Origin: a virus
Virus record (IMG/VR): IMGVR_UViG_3300045411_000038
Coordinates: 1 to 21,446 of that record
Strand: one strand, 5' to 3'
Length of the DNA stretch: 21,446 nucleotides
The stretch's first letter is position 1; each line of letters begins with the position of its first letter. The notes beneath the pieces are model-generated. The model worked only from the letters and a program-made list of their open reading frames with translations, was not told where the DNA came from and did not search any database. The translations under genes and the position numbers were made by a program. Positions 2,415 through 21,121 of the stretch are shown here, piece after piece.

Positions 2415-5400
2415 TTAAACGACTTGCGCCGATTCCGCCCGCTGCGGCTCGTCCAGTCGCCACCCAAACAAGCACACGTGGTCCCACGCCCACAGGTTGA
2501 TGAGGGGCACGCCCGCCTCCCGCGCGGCCAAGTACTCGGCCTCCCAGGGGCAACCCTGGTTGAAGACGGGCACCAAGTACCGACACTTCGCCTTCGGCCA
2601 CTGCGCCTCCGTGAACGGCCAGCGGATAGCCTCCCGCGCCAAGTCCAAGCTGCGGGTGCCAGAGCCGAAGTCCAGGGCCTCCATCTTGATGTAATCAAAC
2701 GGGGCCACCGCCGGGTCGCGGAAGGCGGGCGGAATGTTCACCCAATGCAGCAAGCGGCCCCCAAGGTTGTAGCGCCCAACCGGGCGCGGGTAGTTCACGT
2801 CCATCGGCAGCAGGATCTCGAACACGGCCTGGGGATAGAAACCTCGGACATAGCCTGCAATCTCCGCGCAATACGCCCGCAGCCGCTCGGCCAGCCAGTC
2901 TCCATCCTCGCCGCTGTTGATTGTGGCGGGGTCATCATCCGCACCCTCAAACACGTGAAGTTCGCGCCCGAGCGCCGCCAGCGCCGCCGCCCGCGTCTCG
3001 GTATCGTAGAACGCCAGCGAGCCGTCCTCGGCGAAGTACCACCAGCAGAACTCGCCGAACTGGAGGCCCGGCGTCAGCCCGGCGCTGGCCTGAAGCTGCG
3101 CCATCTGGAGGTAGGCCCGCTTCTGGTAGTTCAGTGCGTTCTCCACGAATGAGCAGTGCGTAGACCGCAGGTGGCGGAAGCATTCGCCTCCCAGCGTGTA
3201 CGTCCCGCCCGCACTCGACCCGTCCAGACTGAAGTGGTCTGCGTCCACCTTGGTGATGCGCCCGTTGGCGAATGTCAAGCCCGGAACCCCGGTAACCGTG
3301 ATGTAGTCCCCTGTGTCGTAGTCGTGCTTCGGCACCTCCAGAACCACCGGGGCACCGTAGGCCACGGATTTCACGGCGCACGGAGACTCCGTACCGAAGA
3401 CGATAGCTGTCAGCACCTTCTTCCCCGAGTTGAACCGGGACGCCCACACGTTCCCCGCCGCGTCGGGAGTGTTGAAAAGCTCCATCGAGAACGCGCTGGT
3501 GATCTCCCGCCCGCGCGCCGCGCACTCCTTGAACAAGTCCGCGTGCCATCGCTCGGCGGCCACGGTCAAGACCGGCTCCTGGTCGATGTCCACCTGCCAC
3601 TGCCCGGTGGTGTACCACAGGTTCTCATTGGTGACCGCGCCCGTCAGAGTGGCGCTGTTGGTCTCGAAGGCCACTGGCGCCCGCCAAAACTTCCCCGTCG
3701 AGCGCCCGTGAAGGCTGAGGAGTGGCCCGCTCGCCTCCGCCCAAAACACCGTAGAGGACTGGTTGATCCGCAGTGCGAACGCCCGCGCCACGGTTTCCAG
3801 CGTGTCCCCAATCGTCATGACGTGGGTGAACTGGGCGCGCTCCGGGTCACCCTCCTCACCAATCCAGAGCGTCGCCATCTTCGAGAACTCTGCCGCACCC
3901 CCGAACGTGACGCTGCTCTGTTGCACGTCGCCACCCACCCGCTTGCGCTGGCACCAGAAGAAGACGCCCACGTACTCGTTGATCGGTCCAGTGAACCCGT
4001 GATTGTCCATCGCCCACATGAGCCGCGCCGCGGGCACCTTGTAGGAGTGGTCGGTGTCCCAGTCGATTGCCGGCGACACGTGCGCCCGCGCCGGGAGCGC
4101 GTCCGGCACGTCGGACAGCACGGCGGCCTCGATAAAATCGAACACCGCCTCGCCACTCGCCAGCGTCAGCACCACTTCATGTTGACCCACCGGCAGGTTC
4201 GTCCTCAGCACTCGGCGCGTGCTCTGAAGCGACTCGGCGCACCAGCAGTTCAGGGTCGTGGGCGTGTCCCCATCCACCCGGACCGTCCACGTCCCCAAGT
4301 CCGGTCCCAGTGAGCCGCCGAGGTAGAGGTTGTGAACGTGCTGGCAGTGATACCGGATGGTCACCTTGTCGCCCACGGTGGAGGCGCGCCGCGCAAGGCC
4401 CTTCGAGTAGAACCCCCACATCGGCACCCAGGACTGGCCTGTGTACTTGCACCAAGCGTCCGACTCCTCGATCCGAACGCTGCCCGGCCCGGCTATCTTG
4501 AGCTCGCGGTTGTTCCCGCTCACGGTCCAGTTGGTGAAGCGCGCCAGCCAGAGCGTCGTCCCGGTGTCCCCTGCCGGGTTAATGGCCGGCGAGAATGTCA
4601 GCCAGCACTGGCGCACTTGCGCCGCCTGAATCGGCAGACCCGTCGTGTCCACCAGGGCGGTGAAATCCAGCGTGACGCGCCACTTCGGTGGCGATACCCC
4701 GCCCACAAAAGTCTGCCACCAGTTCACCCAGTATTCGGTCTTCGCGCCGCTCACGAAACCGTAGGCCCCTACCCGGTTCCCGTCGGCCACTGGGATCACA
4801 TCCTTCAGGGTCAACTGAATCATCCGGCCCGTAGCGGTGGCCTGCGCCGTCGTCGAGAACAGGTTGATGGCCTGCGCCAGATTCACGATGGCGGTCTCCA
4901 GGGTGTCCCCTGCCACCAGCCGGTAGTTGTACTGCTCGGTCAGCCACGACAGCCCGATGTAGTCCCCCACGGTCGGGACGCCATGGATCTCGAAGTTGCA
5001 GACAGCCTGCGTGTACTCGCCCAGCGGCTCCGCGTAGTCCAGTAGTTTCACCCGTGCGCTAGACCCATCCAAGTAGGCGATGTCGAGGAAGGGCCAGTCG
5101 GCTCCGGCGTACCACGACGAGTCGATGGTCTGGAGGCCGGTGGTCTCCAGGTCGAACAGAACCACCACCCCGCTCAGATCAGGGTCCGGCAGGTACTTGA
5201 TGCGCGGGTGCTCGTAGAAGTTGTCGGTGTCCCACAGCACCAGCACAGCCGCATCCGCCAAATCCCGGAATACGCCCTCGACGGTGAACCCGCTCGCGGT
5301 CGCGGAGTGGATGCACGCCGCCGCGCCACGGTCATCGGCGCCCCGCAACTGGATGGTGCGGTTGGGCTGGAACTTGTGGATCGTCTCCGGTCCCGGCGGC

Positions 5401-6107
5401 TCCTCGCCGTATGGCGGCTCCCCGGCTGGGTGCGAAACCGCACGAATCCTCGTGGCGAAAGTCGTGATCCATTGAGAGTGGTACGCGGGCTCAATAGCCG
5501 GCGGGGCATCAACCAAGTGGAAGGCTGTGGTTTCGCCGTTGATCTTCACTAGATCGAAAAACGGATTACCGTCTGCGCCGAGATCCGTATACTTCAAGTC
5601 ACCAGTGGCAACGTTGTGCCCGTACTCGATTGAAACCGGCACGTCAGCGCTGTGGGAGACAATGCTGACGCCGACTTCAATGACCTCGTGGTATGGCTGA
5701 CTGATGCCGCCTGGGTCGAAATAGAGACCGTCCCGAGCGTTCCCCTGCAACCCCGAGGTCATAATGCTGTGCGCCGAGGGATCTGGCTTGAGATAGTTCG
5801 ACGGGTAGACCACGCCAGGAATTGGGGGGCCGCTTTGGCTCTGATAGTTCGGCGTTAAGTAATTACCGGCGGAATCGCAGAGCCGGACGAATCTCCTGAT
5901 TTGGAGTTTGACGCTCGGCGCGAGACCGTCCTCCCGATAGGCCCGGATCAGCCCGTGGATCACCCACCACGGGTAGAGCGCTGGATCGATGGGATCGCCC
6001 ACAATCTGGAAGAGTAGATAATATTTCGGGCTGATCGTCGGGTTCTTCGGGATTAGAACAGTGCGTGTTTGGCGGGTTTTCGGGCGGTAGGGTATGCACC
6101 AAGGCAT
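2415..6107 (-). CDS. Large tail structural protein with TIM-barrel-like C-terminal domain
   Basis: A 1230-residue protein, the longest in the window. The N-terminal 850 residues are beta-rich with no single clear match. Two copies of a small module starting GDTLET occur at about residues 396-440 and 764-806. From about residue 850 to the end it looks like a TIM-barrel glycosidase-like domain: AARGREITSAFSMELFN, then LQFGEFCWWYFAEDGSLAFYD, FEILLPMDVNYPRP and a late LVPVFNQGCPWEAE. A small beta domain is inserted at about 916-974 (KHDYDTGDYITVTGVPG). I recall this layout from phage proteins annotated as non-contractile tail sheath with a TIM-barrel domain; that recollection is unchecked. No ribosome binding site is obvious before the ATG, and translation may be coupled to the wHTH gene that ends 9 bases upstream. 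A structural tail component is likely; sugar hydrolysis is unproven. Confidence 0.88.
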   Translation of the reverse strand: MPWCIPYRPKTRQTRTVLIPKNPTISPKYYLLFQIVGDPIDPALYPWWVIHGLIRAYREDGLAPSVKLQIRRFVRLCDSAGNYLTPNYQSQSGPPIPGVVYPSNYLKPDPSAHSIMTSGLQGNARDGLYFDPGGISQPYHEVIEVGVSIVSHSADVPVSIEYGHNVATGDLKYTDLGADGNPFFDLVKINGETTAFHLVDAPPAIEPAYHSQWITTFATRIRAVSHPAGEPPYGEEPPGPETIHKFQPNRTIQLRGADDRGAAACIHSATASGFTVEGVFRDLADAAVLVLWDTDNFYEHPRIKYLPDPDLSGVVVLFDLETTGLQTIDSSWYAGADWPFLDIAYLDGSSARVKLLDYAEPLGEYTQAVCNFEIHGVPTVGDYIGLSWLTEQYNYRLVAGDTLETAIVNLAQAINLFSTTAQATATGRMIQLTLKDVIPVADGNRVGAYGFVSGAKTEYWVNWWQTFVGGVSPPKWRVTLDFTALVDTTGLPIQAAQVRQCWLTFSPAINPAGDTGTTLWLARFTNWTVSGNNRELKIAGPGSVRIEESDAWCKYTGQSWVPMWGFYSKGLARRASTVGDKVTIRYHCQHVHNLYLGGSLGPDLGTWTVRVDGDTPTTLNCWCAESLQSTRRVLRTNLPVGQHEVVLTLASGEAVFDFIEAAVLSDVPDALPARAHVSPAIDWDTDHSYKVPAARLMWAMDNHGFTGPINEYVGVFFWCQRKRVGGDVQQSSVTFGGAAEFSKMATLWIGEEGDPERAQFTHVMTIGDTLETVARAFALRINQSSTVFWAEASGPLLSLHGRSTGKFWRAPVAFETNSATLTGAVTNENLWYTTGQWQVDIDQEPVLTVAAERWHADLFKECAARGREITSAFSMELFNTPDAAGNVWASRFNSGKKVLTAIVFGTESPCAVKSVAYGAPVVLEVPKHDYDTGDYITVTGVPGLTFANGRITKVDADHFSLDGSSAGGTYTLGGECFRHLRSTHCSFVENALNYQKRAYLQMAQLQASAGLTPGLQFGEFCWWYFAEDGSLAFYDTETRAAALAALGRELHVFEGADDDPATINSGEDGDWLAERLRAYCAEIAGYVRGFYPQAVFEILLPMDVNYPRPVGRYNLGGRLLHWVNIPPAFRDPAVAPFDYIKMEALDFGSGTRSLDLAREAIRWPFTEAQWPKAKCRYLVPVFNQGCPWEAEYLAAREAGVPLINLWAWDHVCLFGWRLDEPQRAESAQVV

Positions 6108-15859: not shown

Positions 15860-16516
15860 TTACTTCCCCCCCCTCAATTCCGGTGGCACCCGGTCGTACC
15901 CTGCCGCCGCCATCCGCGTCCGCACGTAGCCCGCAAACTTCCGCGCCACATCCAGGAAATTGACAAAGAGCGGCAGCACCTTGGCGAACTCCTGGCCGCC
16001 CTCTTTGGCACGCAGCCTGTAAACCGCGTAATCCACAAGGGCAGGGTGAAACTCGACCGGGATTTCCGGGGTCGCGGAAGTCCCTGTCATCCGTGTTGGT
16101 GTCCGGGCATAGGTGACCTCCAAACTGCGCCCACCGTCCGCCGGCCTGGGCGTCACCGCCAGAAGGTCCAGCCCGAGCACTTGGTAGTCCGTCGGGTCAC
16201 CCGCCGCGCTCTGCCAGGCCGAGTTGCGCGCGTCGAAGTCCTCCAGCCGCCCCGGACCCACCCGCGCCCCGGTGTTGTTCACCCGCACACGCAACACCGC
16301 CAGCAGGTCACTGAACGTGCTGAGCAGGTGGTAGAAGCTGGTCGCCGCGTCCAGGTTCAGCGTCCCGGTGGTCTCCAGGCACCAGGTCAACAGGCAGAAC
16401 AGGCGTTGCCCCTCATTGACCGCATCCAGAGCTTCGCTGGACTTGTAGTACACCGGGGCCGCCGGGTCTTCCCCGACGCGCCGCAGCGCCCGCTCCATGA
16501 TTTCGCCCGAGGTCAT
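15860..16516 (-). CDS. Adaptor-like connector protein
   Basis: A 218-residue protein. I choose the ATG at 16516 (MTSGEIMERALRRVGEDPAA) because it overlaps the TGA of the upstream adaptor gene (ATGA) and has GGTGGAA upstream; a GTG three codons earlier is possible. The first 55 residues are helical with the 'x-E-A-L-D-A-V-N-E-G-Q-R-L-F' feature (SEALDAVNEGQRLFCLLTWC) seen in phage adaptor proteins, where the helix ends in a W near residue 45. A beta middle follows (GTLNLDAATSFYHLLSTFSD, then a DYQVLGLDLLAVTPRP strand pair, EVTYARTPTRMT), and a C-terminal helical part (HPALVDYAVYRLRAKEGGQE). This fits the same general architecture as the neighbour at 16513, and a connector role is likely. Confidence 0.75.
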   Translation of the reverse strand: MTSGEIMERALRRVGEDPAAPVYYKSSEALDAVNEGQRLFCLLTWCLETTGTLNLDAATSFYHLLSTFSDLLAVLRVRVNNTGARVGPGRLEDFDARNSAWQSAAGDPTDYQVLGLDLLAVTPRPADGGRSLEVTYARTPTRMTGTSATPEIPVEFHPALVDYAVYRLRAKEGGQEFAKVLPLFVNFLDVARKFAGYVRTRMAAAGYDRVPPELRGGK

Positions 16517-17373
16517 CTGTTCCACCGCCTAGTCTGATGCCGCGTCATCCAGTCCGCCACCCGTAGCGGGGTGGCGCCGCGCCGGCGCGTCTCGACGCCC
16601 ATCATCTCCGCCAGGGCTTCCTTGAACCTGTTCTCATACCATTGCGCCCCGTCGAAGTCCCCCGCCAGCGCCCGCTCATCGGCCTTCGCCCCGTACTTCA
16701 AGGCGGCTGGTCGCATCCAGGGCAGGATGGACGCCGACGTTGTTGACGGCGGCGTAACATCCGCCACATACACCAGCGGGTATCCCCGGCTGTACTCCGG
16801 GATGGGGTAGAGCTCGATCTGCGCTCGCGGCGGGTCAGAGGCGTCATCCATGAACAGCGCCCAGTACACCGGGTCGCCGAAGGTTTCCCGGCTCGGGCTG
16901 ATCTCGTTCAGGTGCGCGAGTGAAACGCGCGTCAGTAGGCCCGGCGTGGCGATGGCCCGCAGATCCTTCACCGTGACCACATCAGAAGGCAGCAGGTAGA
17001 CGTTCTGGAAGATGGTGTAGCCCGCTGCCGCGTTTGTCCCCCCCTCATAGGCCCGGTCGAGCGTGCCAGTGGTGTTCCCTGTGCGCGTGAACTCGTAGTA
17101 TTCGTACCGCCCCGCCACCCGGAACCGCCGCCCAGTCATGCCCGTCGTCCAGGTGGTGCCCGTCCCGGTGACCCCCGTGCTTCCGTTGGTGACCGCCACC
17201 GTTCCCGCGTTGTACTTCGCCGTACTCTGGAGGATGGATTCCACCTCCCGACGCTGCCAAGACAACGCATCGAGGATGGCCTGATAGCGGTCGTAGAGCC
17301 AGCCATCCAGCAGGGCGAGGTCCACCCCCGGCATGGCCTTGGTCAACTCGTAGCGAATCTGTCCGTAGGTCAT
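16513..17373 (-). CDS. Adaptor/head-closure-like protein with inserted beta module
   Basis: A 286-residue protein starting MTYGQIRYELTKAMPGVDLA. The N-terminal helices include LLDGWLYDRYQAILDALSWQ (21-40), the layout of phage adaptors (helix ending in a W) that bind the portal. A small beta module occupies about residues 54-125 (AGTVAVTNGSTGVTGTGTTW, FRVAGRYEYYEF), closely like a module in the nozzle-like protein. Then comes a longer strand set (YWALFMDDASDPPRAQIELY) and helices near the end (LKYGAKADERALAGDFDGAQ, WYENRFKEALAEM), typical of the adaptor C-terminal helix. This is larger than the other adaptor-like genes because of the insertion. It starts 3 bases after the stop of the preceding gene and its stop overlaps the next start. 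SU10-like adaptors are the closest pattern I can recall. Confidence 0.76.
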   Translation of the reverse strand: MTYGQIRYELTKAMPGVDLALLDGWLYDRYQAILDALSWQRREVESILQSTAKYNAGTVAVTNGSTGVTGTGTTWTTGMTGRRFRVAGRYEYYEFTRTGNTTGTLDRAYEGGTNAAAGYTIFQNVYLLPSDVVTVKDLRAIATPGLLTRVSLAHLNEISPSRETFGDPVYWALFMDDASDPPRAQIELYPIPEYSRGYPLVYVADVTPPSTTSASILPWMRPAALKYGAKADERALAGDFDGAQWYENRFKEALAEMMGVETRRRGATPLRVADWMTRHQTRRWNR

Positions 17374-17376
17374 GGA

Positions 17377-17679
17377 CTAGTCTTCCTTGGGGGTCCCCTT
17401 CGGCAGCGTTGAGGTGTCCACCACGACACGCTCCCGCCACCGCACCTCGCACCTCCGCCAGTTGATACCAGCGTCAGAACAGACGCGCAGCCGCAGGTTC
17501 TCGGCCTGTTGTTCGAGGAGCGCCTGCTCCAGCAGGAACTCAGCGGCCACGGGCAGGGCTTTCACCTTCGGCCCTTCGGACGGCTTCTCCTGTCCCCATG
17601 CTGATGCCACACTGAACGTCAGGGCGAGCGGCAGCAGGAAGGCGACGGGCCAGCGAAGGGCGCGCGCGAGTCGCCTCAT
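17377..17679 (-). CDS. Small secreted or membrane-anchored protein (signal peptide)
   Basis: A 100-residue protein whose ATG overlaps the stop of the preceding gene (ATGA). The N-terminus has an n-region rich in Arg (MRRLARALRW), a hydrophobic core (VAFLLPLALTFSV) and an A-S-A site, so cleavage after Ala27 is likely. The mature part has a helical stretch (ALPVAAEFLLEQALLEQQAE), then NLRLRVCSDAGINWRRCEVR with two Cys residues, and a charged end. A single short helical mature domain after a signal peptide is compatible with a spanin-type or periplasmic accessory protein, but I see nothing diagnostic. It follows another secreted protein, and the adaptor gene comes next. Confidence 0.72.
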   Translation of the reverse strand: MRRLARALRWPVAFLLPLALTFSVASAWGQEKPSEGPKVKALPVAAEFLLEQALLEQQAENLRLRVCSDAGINWRRCEVRWRERVVVDTSTLPKGTPKED

Positions 17680-18058: not shown

Positions 18059-20284
18059 CTACCAAGTTGCGATGGCGGCACGTTTCCACGCGCCTGACGC
18101 TGTGCAGACGTAGACGTAAGAGGCATCCCACGTCATCCGCCCGGCATCGCATGGATCACTGGCCGCCGCAGGTGTCAGAGTAGGAACGATCACCGCCCCC
18201 GTGTAATTGAGAATCGGCGGCGTGCTTCCGTCCCCCACCAGCCCGTTATCCACCAAACTGCACGTCGCCGCCGTGCCGATCAGCCCCAGCGTCGCAGGGG
18301 TGCCGCCAGAAGTCGTGCGGTAGAAGGCGTAAGTGGTCGCGCCGGGTACCGCAGTGCAGGTGAGGGTGTTGTAGTTCGTGGCATCCAGTGTTGCGTTTTG
18401 AAGGACGGTCGTGAACTCCCCCGTGACCGCCGTAGTTTTGCCGCTCCCATCTCTGGCAGCAACCTTGTAGCCCCAGGTCTGCGTACAACCTGACCCGCAA
18501 GTTGGAGTCACGGTTTGGCCGACAGGCGTGGTGAGGGATTGCAGGGTGACGGACCCAGCTTGAAACCCGGCCCACTTGCCTGTTGTACCTGAGTTGACCT
18601 CGATGAGGCCAATGGACGTGCGGGAAAGCGCGGCATCCTGCGCTGTCTCGCTCCCCACGAAGACTCTACCGCGCAGTTTCGTCTGACTAATGCTCGTGTT
18701 CCCGAGCGTGGCGGTGTTTGTCCCTGCGCCTGTCGCGTTGTAACCGATCACGATTTCATTGCTGTCGCCGCTGGCGAAGGCCTTGGTTTGCGCCCCTAGG
18801 TAGATGCTGGTATTGCTGGTCTGGTTGGGCGAAGCGCCGTCGGCAATGTAAACACCAGCGTTTACACCTAGCGCACTCAGGTAGTAGCCGGTGGTGTTGT
18901 AGAGAAGGGCACTAACCCCCTGGGCTGAGTTGTAGTAGCCGGTGGTGTTGCTGAAAAGGGCCTGAACCCCCTGGGCTGAGTTGTAGTAGCCGGTGGTGTT
19001 GCTGAAAAGGGCATTAACCCCCTGGGCTGAGTTGTTGGAGCCGGTGGTGTTGCTGAAAAGGGCCTGAAGCCCCTGGGCTGAGTTGTAGTAGCCGGTGGTG
19101 TTGCTGAAAAGGGCATTAACCCCCTGGGCTGAGTTGTTGGAGCCGGTGGTGTTGCTGAAAAGGGCCTGAAGCCCCTGGGCTGAGTTGTAGTAGCCGGTGG
19201 TGTTGCTGAAAAGGGCATTAACCCCCTGGGCTGAGTTGTTGGAGCCGGTGGTGTTGCTGAAAAGGGCCTGAAGCCCCTGGGCTGAGTTGTAGTAGCCGGT
19301 GGTGTTGCTGAAAAGGGCATTAACCCCCTGGGCTGAGTTGTAGTAGCCGGTGGTGTTGCTGAAAAGGGCATTAACCCCCTGGGCTGAGTTGTTGGAGCCG
19401 GTGGTGTTGCGCCCGAGAGCGTTCAGGCCCATACTCGTGTTTCGCAACGCCTGATTGCCGCGCGCTTCCAGTATCACCGTTCCGGCATTATCAACCCATT
19501 GAACAAGACTCGGGATGCTTCCCGTAATGGCCTTCACGGTCACGTTGTCCAATGCGCCGTCAAAAGCGTTGGTAGGCGTGAACGTAAGCGCCTGCGCCCC
19601 ACTGCCACTGGCAACCAGAGTGCGCTGCCAGGTTCCATTGCTGCTGAAACTTATATCCCACGGGTAACAAACCAGTGTCACCGCGCCAATGCTGACTGTG
19701 ACGCCGCCCGCCGTTATTCCGCTGAGGGTAAACTCCACTTGATACGTCGTTCCGTTTGCCACCGTGATGTTCTGCGACAGCGTTTCAGTGTTGCCTGCGG
19801 CGTGCAATGCGGTCCCAGCGTTCCAGGTCCAGCCGGTGCCTGTACCGCTGATAGTCCAGCCAGAGAGATCAGTGATGAAGCCGCCATTGGCGACCAACTC
19901 CGAACCGAGCGGAGCGGTCATGGACTGGGCCGCTCCCGCCCGCACCACCAGCGTGCTCGCCCCCGTAACCGCCGTATCGTCGTAGAGCAGGCAGGTCACG
20001 GGCGAGCCGGTGCAGGAGAGCTTCGACGGCCCGAGTACCCCCGCCGCAGAGACACGCGGGATGACGGAGGCCGCGGTCAACGTGGAGGCTCCCCCCACGG
20101 CGTCGGCCCCGCCCCCGCTCGTCCCGGGTTGCCAGCAGGTGTTCGCGGTACTCCAAGCCAGGGCGTTCCCGTCACTGGGCGCCGTGCTACAAATCGGTCG
20201 GCCCTGAAGCCGCCGCGCGTTCGTGGATGGCGGCTGGGCCCAACCGAGGCCAGCCACCAAGAGAAACAAGATGAGGCGTTTCAT
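18059..20284 (-). CDS. Secreted fibre/adhesin-like protein with 17-residue repeats and CBM-like domain
   Basis: A 741-residue protein. Residues 1-16 are a signal peptide (MKRLILFLLVAGLGWA, cleavage before Q17). Residues 26-54 carry the 'LQGRPICSTAPSDGNALAW' motif common near the start of phage fibre proteins. Residues 128-252 look like a carbohydrate-binding jelly-roll (SELVANGGFITDLSGWTISG; QNITVANGTTYQVEFTLSG; AFDGALDNVTVKA). Residues 293-479 are eleven 17-residue repeats of NTTGYYNSAQGVNALFS, the YadA-head-like layout seen in trimeric adhesins and fibres. Residues ~515-560 (NEIVIGYNATGAGTNTATLG) are a typical end of that head. The C-terminus has a fibronectin-like region and a final DPCDAGRMTWDASYVYVCTA. 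The start overlaps the preceding stop (ATGA). A signal peptide on a fibre is odd, since fibres normally assemble in the cytoplasm. Confidence 0.87.
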   Translation of the reverse strand: MKRLILFLLVAGLGWAQPPSTNARRLQGRPICSTAPSDGNALAWSTANTCWQPGTSGGGADAVGGASTLTAASVIPRVSAAGVLGPSKLSCTGSPVTCLLYDDTAVTGASTLVVRAGAAQSMTAPLGSELVANGGFITDLSGWTISGTGTGWTWNAGTALHAAGNTETLSQNITVANGTTYQVEFTLSGITAGGVTVSIGAVTLVCYPWDISFSSNGTWQRTLVASGSGAQALTFTPTNAFDGALDNVTVKAITGSIPSLVQWVDNAGTVILEARGNQALRNTSMGLNALGRNTTGSNNSAQGVNALFSNTTGYYNSAQGVNALFSNTTGYYNSAQGLQALFSNTTGSNNSAQGVNALFSNTTGYYNSAQGLQALFSNTTGSNNSAQGVNALFSNTTGYYNSAQGLQALFSNTTGSNNSAQGVNALFSNTTGYYNSAQGVQALFSNTTGYYNSAQGVSALLYNTTGYYLSALGVNAGVYIADGASPNQTSNTSIYLGAQTKAFASGDSNEIVIGYNATGAGTNTATLGNTSISQTKLRGRVFVGSETAQDAALSRTSIGLIEVNSGTTGKWAGFQAGSVTLQSLTTPVGQTVTPTCGSGCTQTWGYKVAARDGSGKTTAVTGEFTTVLQNATLDATNYNTLTCTAVPGATTYAFYRTTSGGTPATLGLIGTAATCSLVDNGLVGDGSTPPILNYTGAVIVPTLTPAAASDPCDAGRMTWDASYVYVCTASGAWKRAAIATW
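18848..19408 (-). repeat. Eleven 51-bp tandem repeats with a 102-bp higher-order period
   Basis: Eleven adjacent 51-base units encode 17-residue repeats of NTTGxxNSAQGxxALFS. Most copies are nearly identical at the base level. Two unit types alternate in the middle, GSNN...VNA and GYYN...LQA, which gives a 102-base higher-order period across units 4 to 8, and the last two units are diverged (ALLY, AGVY). All units are in frame, so copy-number changes keep the protein intact. Near-identity also makes this region prone to assembly collapse. Confidence 0.92.
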
Positions 20285-20637
20285 CGCGCTGCGTACCTCC
20301 GGGTGTAGAGGGTCAGGGTCCGCGCCGCCAGTTGATTCACCGGCGTTCCACTGGTCCCGCTCTGGAGCTTCAGGTAGATGGCGCTCATGAATTCGGTCGG
20401 GTCCAGGTATCGGAACTGCCCCGCCGTGACGCCCTTGGTGATTTCCGTGCCCGCGTCATCGCGGAGTACGTGGTAGGTGACGCCATCGAAGCTGACCTGG
20501 AAGGACAGCCCGGCGGCTGTCCAGGCGGCGGGGTAGAGAATACCCACCAGACTGAACTCGCCCCCGATGAAGACCGCCGCACTCAGGCTGGTGTTGATGG
20601 CGATGGTCGCAGTGATCGCGCGTGTGTAGGCGCTCAT
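20281..20637 (-). CDS. Small phage structural-type protein
   Basis: A 118-residue protein starting MSAYTRAITATIAINTSLSA with an AAAGGAGA ribosome binding site upstream and a GC hairpin just before that. The sequence is beta-rich: FIGGEFSLVGILYPAAWTAA, then LSFQVSFDGVTYHVLRDDAG and an ending with TPVNQLAARTLTLYTRRYAA. This pattern, with 'L-S-x-A-x-F-I-G-x-x-x-L-V-G-I-x-x-P-x-A-W' and 'F-Q-x-S-x-D-G-x-T-Y', recurs in phage proteins near the capsid genes; I know no fixed function. A neck or decoration component is likely. Its stop overlaps the start of the fibre-like protein. Confidence 0.78.
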   Translation of the reverse strand: MSAYTRAITATIAINTSLSAAVFIGGEFSLVGILYPAAWTAAGLSFQVSFDGVTYHVLRDDAGTEITKGVTAGQFRYLDPTEFMSAIYLKLQSGTSGTPVNQLAARTLTLYTRRYAAR

Positions 20638-20692: not shown

Positions 20693-21121
20693 TCAGGCCG
20701 CCGCCTCAACCTGCGCCAAGGTCCCGGAAGCGCCCATCTGAAGGCCCTTCCAGGAAGTTGCCGAAGCGCAGATCATCAGCACGGTGGTGTTGGCTCCGAT
20801 GGCAGACTCCGCCCCAGCCCCGGTCCCACCGTTGATGGCGATGGTTGCCGGGTCACTGGAACGAAGCTCGTAGCCGGTCGCTCCCACGTGGAGCATGACG
20901 ACGCTGCCCGGCGTTGGCGCCGGCAGCACGATGATGCAGTTCGCGTCCGCCCCGGCCGTCACCGCGATGAACTGGAGCGTGGGTCCGCTGGCGATGGTTC
21001 CGGTTCCGCTTCCGTCCGCCGTCGCGGTCCTGGCGATGGCAGACATGGTGAACCCGGCAGCCGCCAGCGCCACCGTGCCCGCGATGGTCACGTTGTCGAA
21101 TTTGGTTGGTCGCTTTGCCAT
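20693..21121 (-). CDS. Putative head decoration/structural protein
   Basis: A 142-residue protein starting MAKRPTKFDNVTIAGTVALA, placed directly after the major capsid gene. After a short basic start it is Ala/Gly/Thr-rich and beta-rich: ATADGSGTGTIASGPTLQFI, then ADANCIIVLPAPTPGSVVML, and YELRSSDPATIAINGGTGAG. I recall similar sequences in phages, in the position expected for a decoration or accessory head protein. No transmembrane segment or enzyme motif. It is preceded by a GC hairpin and GGGAGA ribosome binding site. Confidence 0.78.
   Translation of the reverse strand: MAKRPTKFDNVTIAGTVALAAAGFTMSAIARTATADGSGTGTIASGPTLQFIAVTAGADANCIIVLPAPTPGSVVMLHVGATGYELRSSDPATIAINGGTGAGAESAIGANTTVLMICASATSWKGLQMGASGTLAQVEAAA

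Follow-up and report, generated by a model that had tools for sequence, protein, structure and literature searches.

The choice of host cell by a phage depends on its tail fibres, whose folding and assembly are assumed to be cytoplasmic. In the environmental 21,446-base contig of a bacterial virus analysed here (IMG/VR record IMGVR_UViG_3300045411_000038; the window, meaning this whole stretch at its full length), a gene inside the virion module encodes a 741-aa fibre-like protein that begins with a predicted Sec signal peptide. Our preferred reading, to which we give a probability of roughly 0.4, is that the protein is a tail fibre or other receptor-binding protein that passes through the host Sec pathway, is cleaved and disulphide-bonded in the periplasm, and joins phage particles at lysis. 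According to this model the fibre would be made from the virion operon and exported through Sec, cleavage by signal peptidase I (SPase I) would leave an N-terminal glutamine (Gln), and folding and disulphide formation would follow in the periplasm, where the two small signal-bearing proteins of the next genes would accompany the fibre. If the host is diderm, the fibre would be retained there until lysis, when, at high local concentration, it would meet particles assembled in the cytoplasm and dock on them as an outer carbohydrate-binding fibre; in T4, free fibres are able to join finished particles. Support at the level of sequence comes from the signal peptide, the fibre modules, paired cysteines, the place in the virion module and the fact that the signal is kept in several phage groups; actual export, cleavage, disulphides, a diderm host and virion attachment at lysis are what we infer.

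The 741-codon open reading frame (ORF) runs on the minus strand from 20284 to 18059, where the plus strand is full of stop codons, and is a real ORF in a podovirus-like virion module. Its ATG shares the sequence ATGA with the stop codon of the upstream gene, a sign of translational coupling, and is preceded by a GGAGG 11 nt ahead, so the start is unlikely to have been mis-called. The signal peptide has an MKR n-region, an unbroken hydrophobic core with a mean hydropathy of 3.19 and a predicted cleavage site between GWA and Q. An earlier note on this DNA, made from the letters and a list of ORFs, had described a fibre- or adhesin-like protein carrying a signal peptide, and the ORF, the signal caller, PHROG matches and a tail-fibre motif all agree with that description. 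It had also asked whether close relatives lack the hydrophobic start: two relatives (L002 and L003) carry an identical signal peptide, and a distant one (L208) has a signal in the same slot.

Signal peptides were called by rules and not by SignalP, using the hydropathy of a 10-residue core, a net positive start and an A-x-A-like site or lipobox; annotated starts were used for controls, and any start within the first 60-70 codons for unannotated loci. None of 146 annotated coding sequences from 17 reference-phage loci, 17 fibre-type proteins included, was positive, and among 139 coding sequences from five capsid-related phages (other or unstated hosts) the single positive was a glycine-rich 294-aa protein. 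In the window the ORF at 20693-21121 was flagged near the threshold and was not accepted as signal-bearing. The caller does yield some false positives, but that the fibre signal is a chance hydrophobic start or a gene-calling artefact is extremely improbable: the start is fixed by ATGA and GGAGG, the 146 controls gave no call, and the signal recurs both in the same slot of L208 and clade-wide in the tail-hub tree described below.

The body of the protein is built from modules known from fibres. PHROG virion structural and tail spike matches (3.2e-29 to 5.6e-19) cover YadA-type repeats and the stretch just ahead of them, while Pfam (E up to 0.1) and solved-structure sequence searches with the 741-aa protein gave nothing usable. 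Near the N-terminus, residues 26-54 match the AP-x-DG-xx-L-x-W...W-x-P motif of the Synechococcus-phage tail fibres of S-B68 (LNDVDIQTTAPTDGQALIWDNARSLWVPG) and MA01, although the similarity search that led to it was weak (E 2 to 8). Residues 121-265 gave a structure model of low-to-medium confidence (pLDDT 61.7, pTM 0.67) whose best PDB matches are jelly rolls of the carbohydrate-binding module (CBM) families CBM35, CBM6, CBM36 and CBM4 and the central fibre of mycobacteriophage Douge (Foldseek E 1.6e-4 against CBM35). VIA-align gave Z scores of about 8-9 for the same model, tied over many beta sandwiches; because its top row, a toxin C-terminal beta-sandwich domain, ties with many CBMs, no family was assigned to the predicted jelly roll. 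AlphaFold run on the whole protein with a three-row alignment gave an uninformative model (mean pLDDT 38.8), which was not used.

The YadA-type array has a period of 51 bp, 10.4 copies and 90% matches. Fibre length differs among near-identical phages, from 741 aa in the window to 690 aa in L002 (1979-4051; three units fewer) and 622 aa in L003 (6219-8087; seven units fewer), a difference in repeat number that may reflect variation in fibre length or collapse of repeats during assembly. Beyond the array, the fibre shares with a signal-bearing ORF of another contig (L004 7758-8987) a C-terminal domain with cysteines at similar places, and its C-terminal tip resembles the end of a phage ORF in L162 (E 2.8e-7). 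Pfam returned no C-terminal YadA beta-barrel anchor up to E 0.1, and no Peptidase S74 domain, the C-terminal intramolecular chaperone, in the fibre. The repeats and the fibre-type ends that had been read from the letters were recovered, and the carbohydrate-binding-like jelly roll was predicted at the confidence of its model.

The gene lies in a virion module, in line with the virion operon proposed earlier. In transcription order the end of the capsid gene (21446-21192) is followed by two small virion-type genes, the translationally coupled fibre gene, genes for 123-aa and 100-aa proteins and an adaptor-like protein, after which the module continues with two SU10-type adaptors separated by other genes (Pfam 3e-19 and 2.2e-19), a large nozzle-type protein (10157-13237) and further tail genes. 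The fibre gene sits between capsid/decoration-type genes and SU10-type adaptors. A full-length capsid gene in the same place in the relative L207 (154-1071) matches annotated phage capsid proteins. Both small proteins encoded after the fibre carry predicted signals, and the 100-aa one is likely homologous to an 86-aa signal-bearing protein found after siphovirus fibres: one hhalign comparison with that family gave a probability of 60 (E 8.6e-5), the alignment spanning the signal end, the middle part and the C-x9-C pair. That these small exported neighbours are periplasmic assembly partners is a guess. The features of the window are collected in Table 1. As a separate observation, one of these tail genes, at 2415-6107 on the minus strand and next to the SU10-type adaptors, codes for a protein of 1,230 aa that contains the TIM-barrel domain of a non-contractile tail sheath (Pfam PF23845, 9.7e-16).

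Table 1. Features of the 21,446-base window discussed in the text.
Feature	Position	Strand	Basis
Predicted exported fibre/adhesin-like protein, 741 aa	18059..20284	-	ORF listing and PHROG matches
Probable ribosome-binding site GGAGG, 11 nt upstream of the fibre ATG	20296..20300	-	
Predicted Sec/SPase I-type signal peptide, residues 1-16, MKRLILFLLVAGLGWA then Q	20237..20284	-	Rule-based caller
Tail-fibre motif, residues 26-54, LQGRPICSTAPSDGNALAWSTANTCWQPG, with Cys32 and Cys50	20123..20209	-	Comparison with L215 and L216
Predicted CBM-like jelly roll, residues 121-265	19490..19924	-	Structure model
YadA-type repeats, 51-bp/17-aa unit, about 10 copies	18881..19410	-	Repeat detection
C-terminal domain, about residues 574-696, common to signal-bearing ORF L004 7758-8987	18197..18565	-	35% identity, E 7.7e-9
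Major capsid protein, C-terminal part, cut by the window end	21192..21446	-	Open ORF
Second signal-bearing small protein, 123 aa	17676..18047	-	Rule-based caller; 97% in L003 and L091
Small protein of 100 aa, third with a signal; C-x9-C; coupled to the preceding gene through ATGA	17377..17679	-	Rule-based caller
Adaptor-like virion protein fixing the position of the cassette	16513..17373	-	45% identical to L208 6254-7147
Fourth signal-peptide protein, 185 aa, possible lipobox LSAC, in the tail module	9583..10140	-	Rule-based caller
208-aa protein without signal, tail-protein/tail-fibre-type N-terminus	8018..8644	-	PHROG tail protein/tail fibre, 3.5e-6 to 0.0034

Signal-bearing ORFs recur in other phage contigs. 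A 50-kb contig (L208/L219) that is 40-45% identical to the window in nozzle and adaptor encodes a signal-bearing 423-aa fibre in the same capsid/adaptor interval, with a different mature sequence, and here too the adaptor (L208 6254-7147) comes after the signal-bearing fibre. Several further signal-bearing ORFs, one of 1,229 aa, lie between its portal and capsid genes. In two other loci (L004 and L007) three consecutive signal-bearing ORFs follow genes of portal and head-morphogenesis type, named by eye. The 50-kb contig, which is podovirus-like, has a run of signal-called ORFs from portal to adaptor (L219 413-10004 and L261), in which the 1,229-aa ORF has 32 cysteines. We also noted what seems to be an intein-like insert in the portal-type protein of L004 (1184-5095), starting after MMNRA and ending ...VTRRNGKIAIHGN, that is not present in the very similar protein of L007 (3972-6302). 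Searches for cultured relatives with the hub and nozzle found no phage with a comparable fibre arrangement, a capsid search returned relatives at about 30% identity without such signals, and a plasmid search using the fibre of L122, one of the loci compared, gave no match.

Signal-bearing fibres unrelated to that of the window were also found in siphovirus contigs, which were reached through the 86-aa neighbour protein (19 loci) and the tail hub (80 loci), sets in which loci of a single contig may stand under two identifiers. Their usual gene order is tape measure, hub and signal-bearing fibre (between 427 and 1,737 aa in loci complete enough to be read), often followed by signal-bearing ORFs of 85-100 aa and roughly 119-141 aa, and several have a second signal-bearing fibre. 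Small signal-bearing ORFs also follow the fibre in other contigs, for example L144 and L160 (by the caller) and L178 (by eye). In one case (L121) the upstream genes match a tape measure (Pfam TMP_3, 8.2e-22) and a hub (phrog_177, 0.0012), and the first signal-bearing fibre matches PHROG 'tail fiber' (6e-10); inspection by eye of the stretch near the hub in L121/L128 found no fibre ORF besides the signal-bearing one.

In a tree of 53 hubs, all 28 loci with a signal-bearing fibre fell in one clade (SH-aLRT 99), together with only two loci without signal, and 23 non-signal loci lay outside; the trait requires 2 changes on the tree, against 17.5 on shuffled labels. The 53 loci were taken from the 80 by leaving out those that were contig-ended, fragmentary, same-contig repeats or ambiguous. 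For the gene next to the hub the caller was positive in 28 of 69 loci, with 11 unscored; by eye three of these calls were false, and five signals missed by the cleavage rule were recognised (L144, L158, L159, L160 and L162). L163 and L166 owe their labels to signal-bearing ORFs lying as far as about 2 kb beyond the hub, and four loci labelled 'no' (L174, L180, L184 and L196) have just 0.7-1.2 kb of downstream sequence. Since the tree was built quickly and has long branches, near-copies and labels set partly by hand, we used it for overall clustering only.

Two further features, a cysteine pair and a Gln after the cleavage site, suggest real export over a hydrophobic accident. In all 13 distinct signal-bearing instances of a second fibre motif, GQ-x-L-x-TDG-x-G, a Cys follows the Q and another stands a few residues beyond the motif; the pair occurs in none of three non-exported fibres, nor in the non-exported L212 and L214, though comparators are few. 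The pair in the window motif, Cys32/Cys50, is similar, and two non-exported versions of that motif (L215 and L216) have no cysteines. Directly after the predicted SPase I site of the window fibre stands Q17, and in 26 of the 32 signal-bearing phage ORFs of at least 250 aa the polar residue met first beyond the core is Gln; the other six include three apparent false calls. Counted by the same rule, Gln comes first in 41 of 84 cases from Bacteroidota loci and in 4 of 25 from a Sinorhizobium plasmid of similar G+C.

The preference is also strong, at 30 of 51, on plasmid pACIX901 of Granulicella tundricola (Acidobacteriota; L220-L239), resembling the Q-rule known in Bacteroidetes signal peptides (PMC5837995); the main text of that 2018 paper does not mention Acidobacteria. 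Signal-peptide style and G+C, with the Granulicella plasmid as a proxy for Acidobacteriota, point to an acidobacterial or bacteroidotal host, and the G+C of the window (59-69%) favours Acidobacteriota, which we regard as the probable group. An uncleaved N-terminus, acting as a membrane anchor that would tether the fibre to the inner membrane during assembly or for entry, would suit the strongly hydrophobic core, and cleavage is deduced from sequence rules; we nevertheless think it quite improbable, because an SPase I-type site directly follows the core and selection on the Gln, which comes next in most of the large ORFs as in exported proteins of Granulicella and Bacteroidota, is best explained if it becomes the N-terminus.

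Several observations weigh against an exported virion fibre. The free choice of start biases the caller toward positives in unannotated loci, although most signal-bearing fibre starts coincide with the stop of the preceding gene; false positives are visible by eye (L164, L165 and L179). Inside the hub clade, the gene after the hub carries no signal in L146 and L149. In L218, which is 82% identical in the adjacent adaptor, the cassette is not found immediately ahead of that gene, but the contig ends 487 nt before it. The window fibre has 11 cysteines, an odd number, and cysteine density was 1.22 per 100 aa in signal-bearing proteins versus 0.93 in others (p 0.023, several false calls included); density and parity proved a weak test of oxidising folding and were dropped, and the motif-level pair was retained. 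Finally, the signal-less 208-aa protein at 8018-8644 is possibly a docking partner or adaptor, an alternative fibre or the true fibre, and because the window phage has this second fibre-type protein, the exported one may be accessory.

The YadA-type repeats supply a further difficulty. Phage spikes and fibres with such repeats, among them those of Roseobacter phages CRP-1 and CRP-7, Pelagibacter phage HTVC111P and SPO1 (gp2.52), are about 37-53% identical to the window fibre over the matched stretch but differ from it at the N-terminus: a signal peptide was found in none of the 14 examined out of 64 phage records with YadA matches. Secreted bacterial proteins with the same kind of repeat are like the window fibre in this respect, with signals in 50 of 67 ORFs with a complete 5' end among the best 80 of 467 matches (11 more were cut and two had no scored ORF). 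These counts are what one might expect if a secreted bacterial YadA-repeat adhesin had been acquired by the phage as cargo and were expressed for the benefit of the host, as in lysogenic conversion. We consider this unlikely, since translational coupling ties the gene into the virion operon and it contains a phage-fibre motif, most signal-bearing counterparts in other phages have fibre modules without being YadA-repeat proteins, and no bacterial homologue of the N-terminal 122 residues was seen among the same 80 best matches, from a scan of genome contigs that gave YadA-repeat proteins only. The suggestion in the earlier note of a host gene moved into the phage fits poorly with the phage-fibre motifs and virion-module synteny, even though the YadA part resembles secreted bacterial proteins. 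YadA-type trimeric autotransporter adhesins share the signal and head-type repeats with the window fibre, in which Pfam detected no beta-barrel anchor.

The principal alternative is an exported fibre that stays outside the particle, made late and located in the periplasm or at the cell surface, which after lysis would coat receptors or debris and so mask receptors, exclude superinfection or keep progeny from sticking to lysed cells. Phage exports that act in the periplasm are documented, as in the case of T4 Spackle (PMC7650644), the signal-less fibre-type protein at 8018-8644 leaves room for such a role, and the predicted CBM-like domain would suit receptor binding. We find it doubtful, though a serious contender, as the signal-bearing protein of the siphoviruses lies directly after tape measure and hub with no other fibre ORF seen by eye (L121/L128), and no outer-membrane anchor was detected by Pfam; a fibre without an anchor would leave the periplasm only at lysis, by which time the cell that made it could no longer be protected. 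The earlier argument that secretion implies another role stands in part: the conflict with cytoplasmic assembly as usually understood holds, and the reference fibres (the 14 YadA-repeat fibres and the 17 fibre-type proteins among the 146 control sequences) carry no signal, but signals recur on tail-fibre genes in several uncultured phage groups. Because they do so even directly after a hub where no other fibre gene is seen, export alone implies no non-virion role.

Compared with known systems, the window protein fits tailed-phage fibres by its place in the virion module and its fibre modules, and departs from them by its export signal. The cytoplasmic fibres of Synechococcus and Pelagibacter phages (S-B68, MA01, S-B05 and Mosig) share the AP-x-DG-xx-L-x-W or GQ-x-L-x-TDG-x-G motif, but with the motif at least 60 residues into the protein, with no signal call and without a Cys pair at the motif. 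T4 Spackle (gp61.3), whose signal peptide is cleaved, is exported to the periplasm and binds the tail lysozyme; it is like the window fibre in export, which for the latter is predicted, and differs in being a 97-aa tail-lysozyme inhibitor and no fibre (PMC7650644). Phages of Porphyromonas gingivalis carry five signal-bearing genes of unknown function that obey the Q-rule, as the window fibre does, and that are not described as tail fibres (PMC10367356). Our search of the full-text literature, which excludes subscription papers and preprints, found no description of Sec signals on the tail fibres of tailed phages.

Taken more broadly, the preferred reading of a Sec-exported virion fibre would point to a distinct way of building tailed phages, in which fibres exported by Sec, processed and disulphide-bonded in the periplasm and accompanied by dedicated small partners join particles at lysis. 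We advance this generalisation tentatively, with less assurance than the reading of the window fibre itself; podovirus and siphovirus types would probably share the mode through a common host group, likely Acidobacteriota, with deep inheritance in at least one siphovirus clade. Benler et al. (2018) took the absence of signal peptides as support for a phage origin of variable proteins (PMC6199706), a rule that would need a caveat if fibres carry Sec signals. In annotation, signal-bearing fibre genes can readily be taken for secreted proteins of the host, and the signal peptide would, if the reading is true, offer an easy way to recognise fibres by sequence in phage genomes from the environment. 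Part of a tailed virion would then be made outside the cytoplasm, and disulphide-stabilised fibres and a final assembly step at lysis would become possible.

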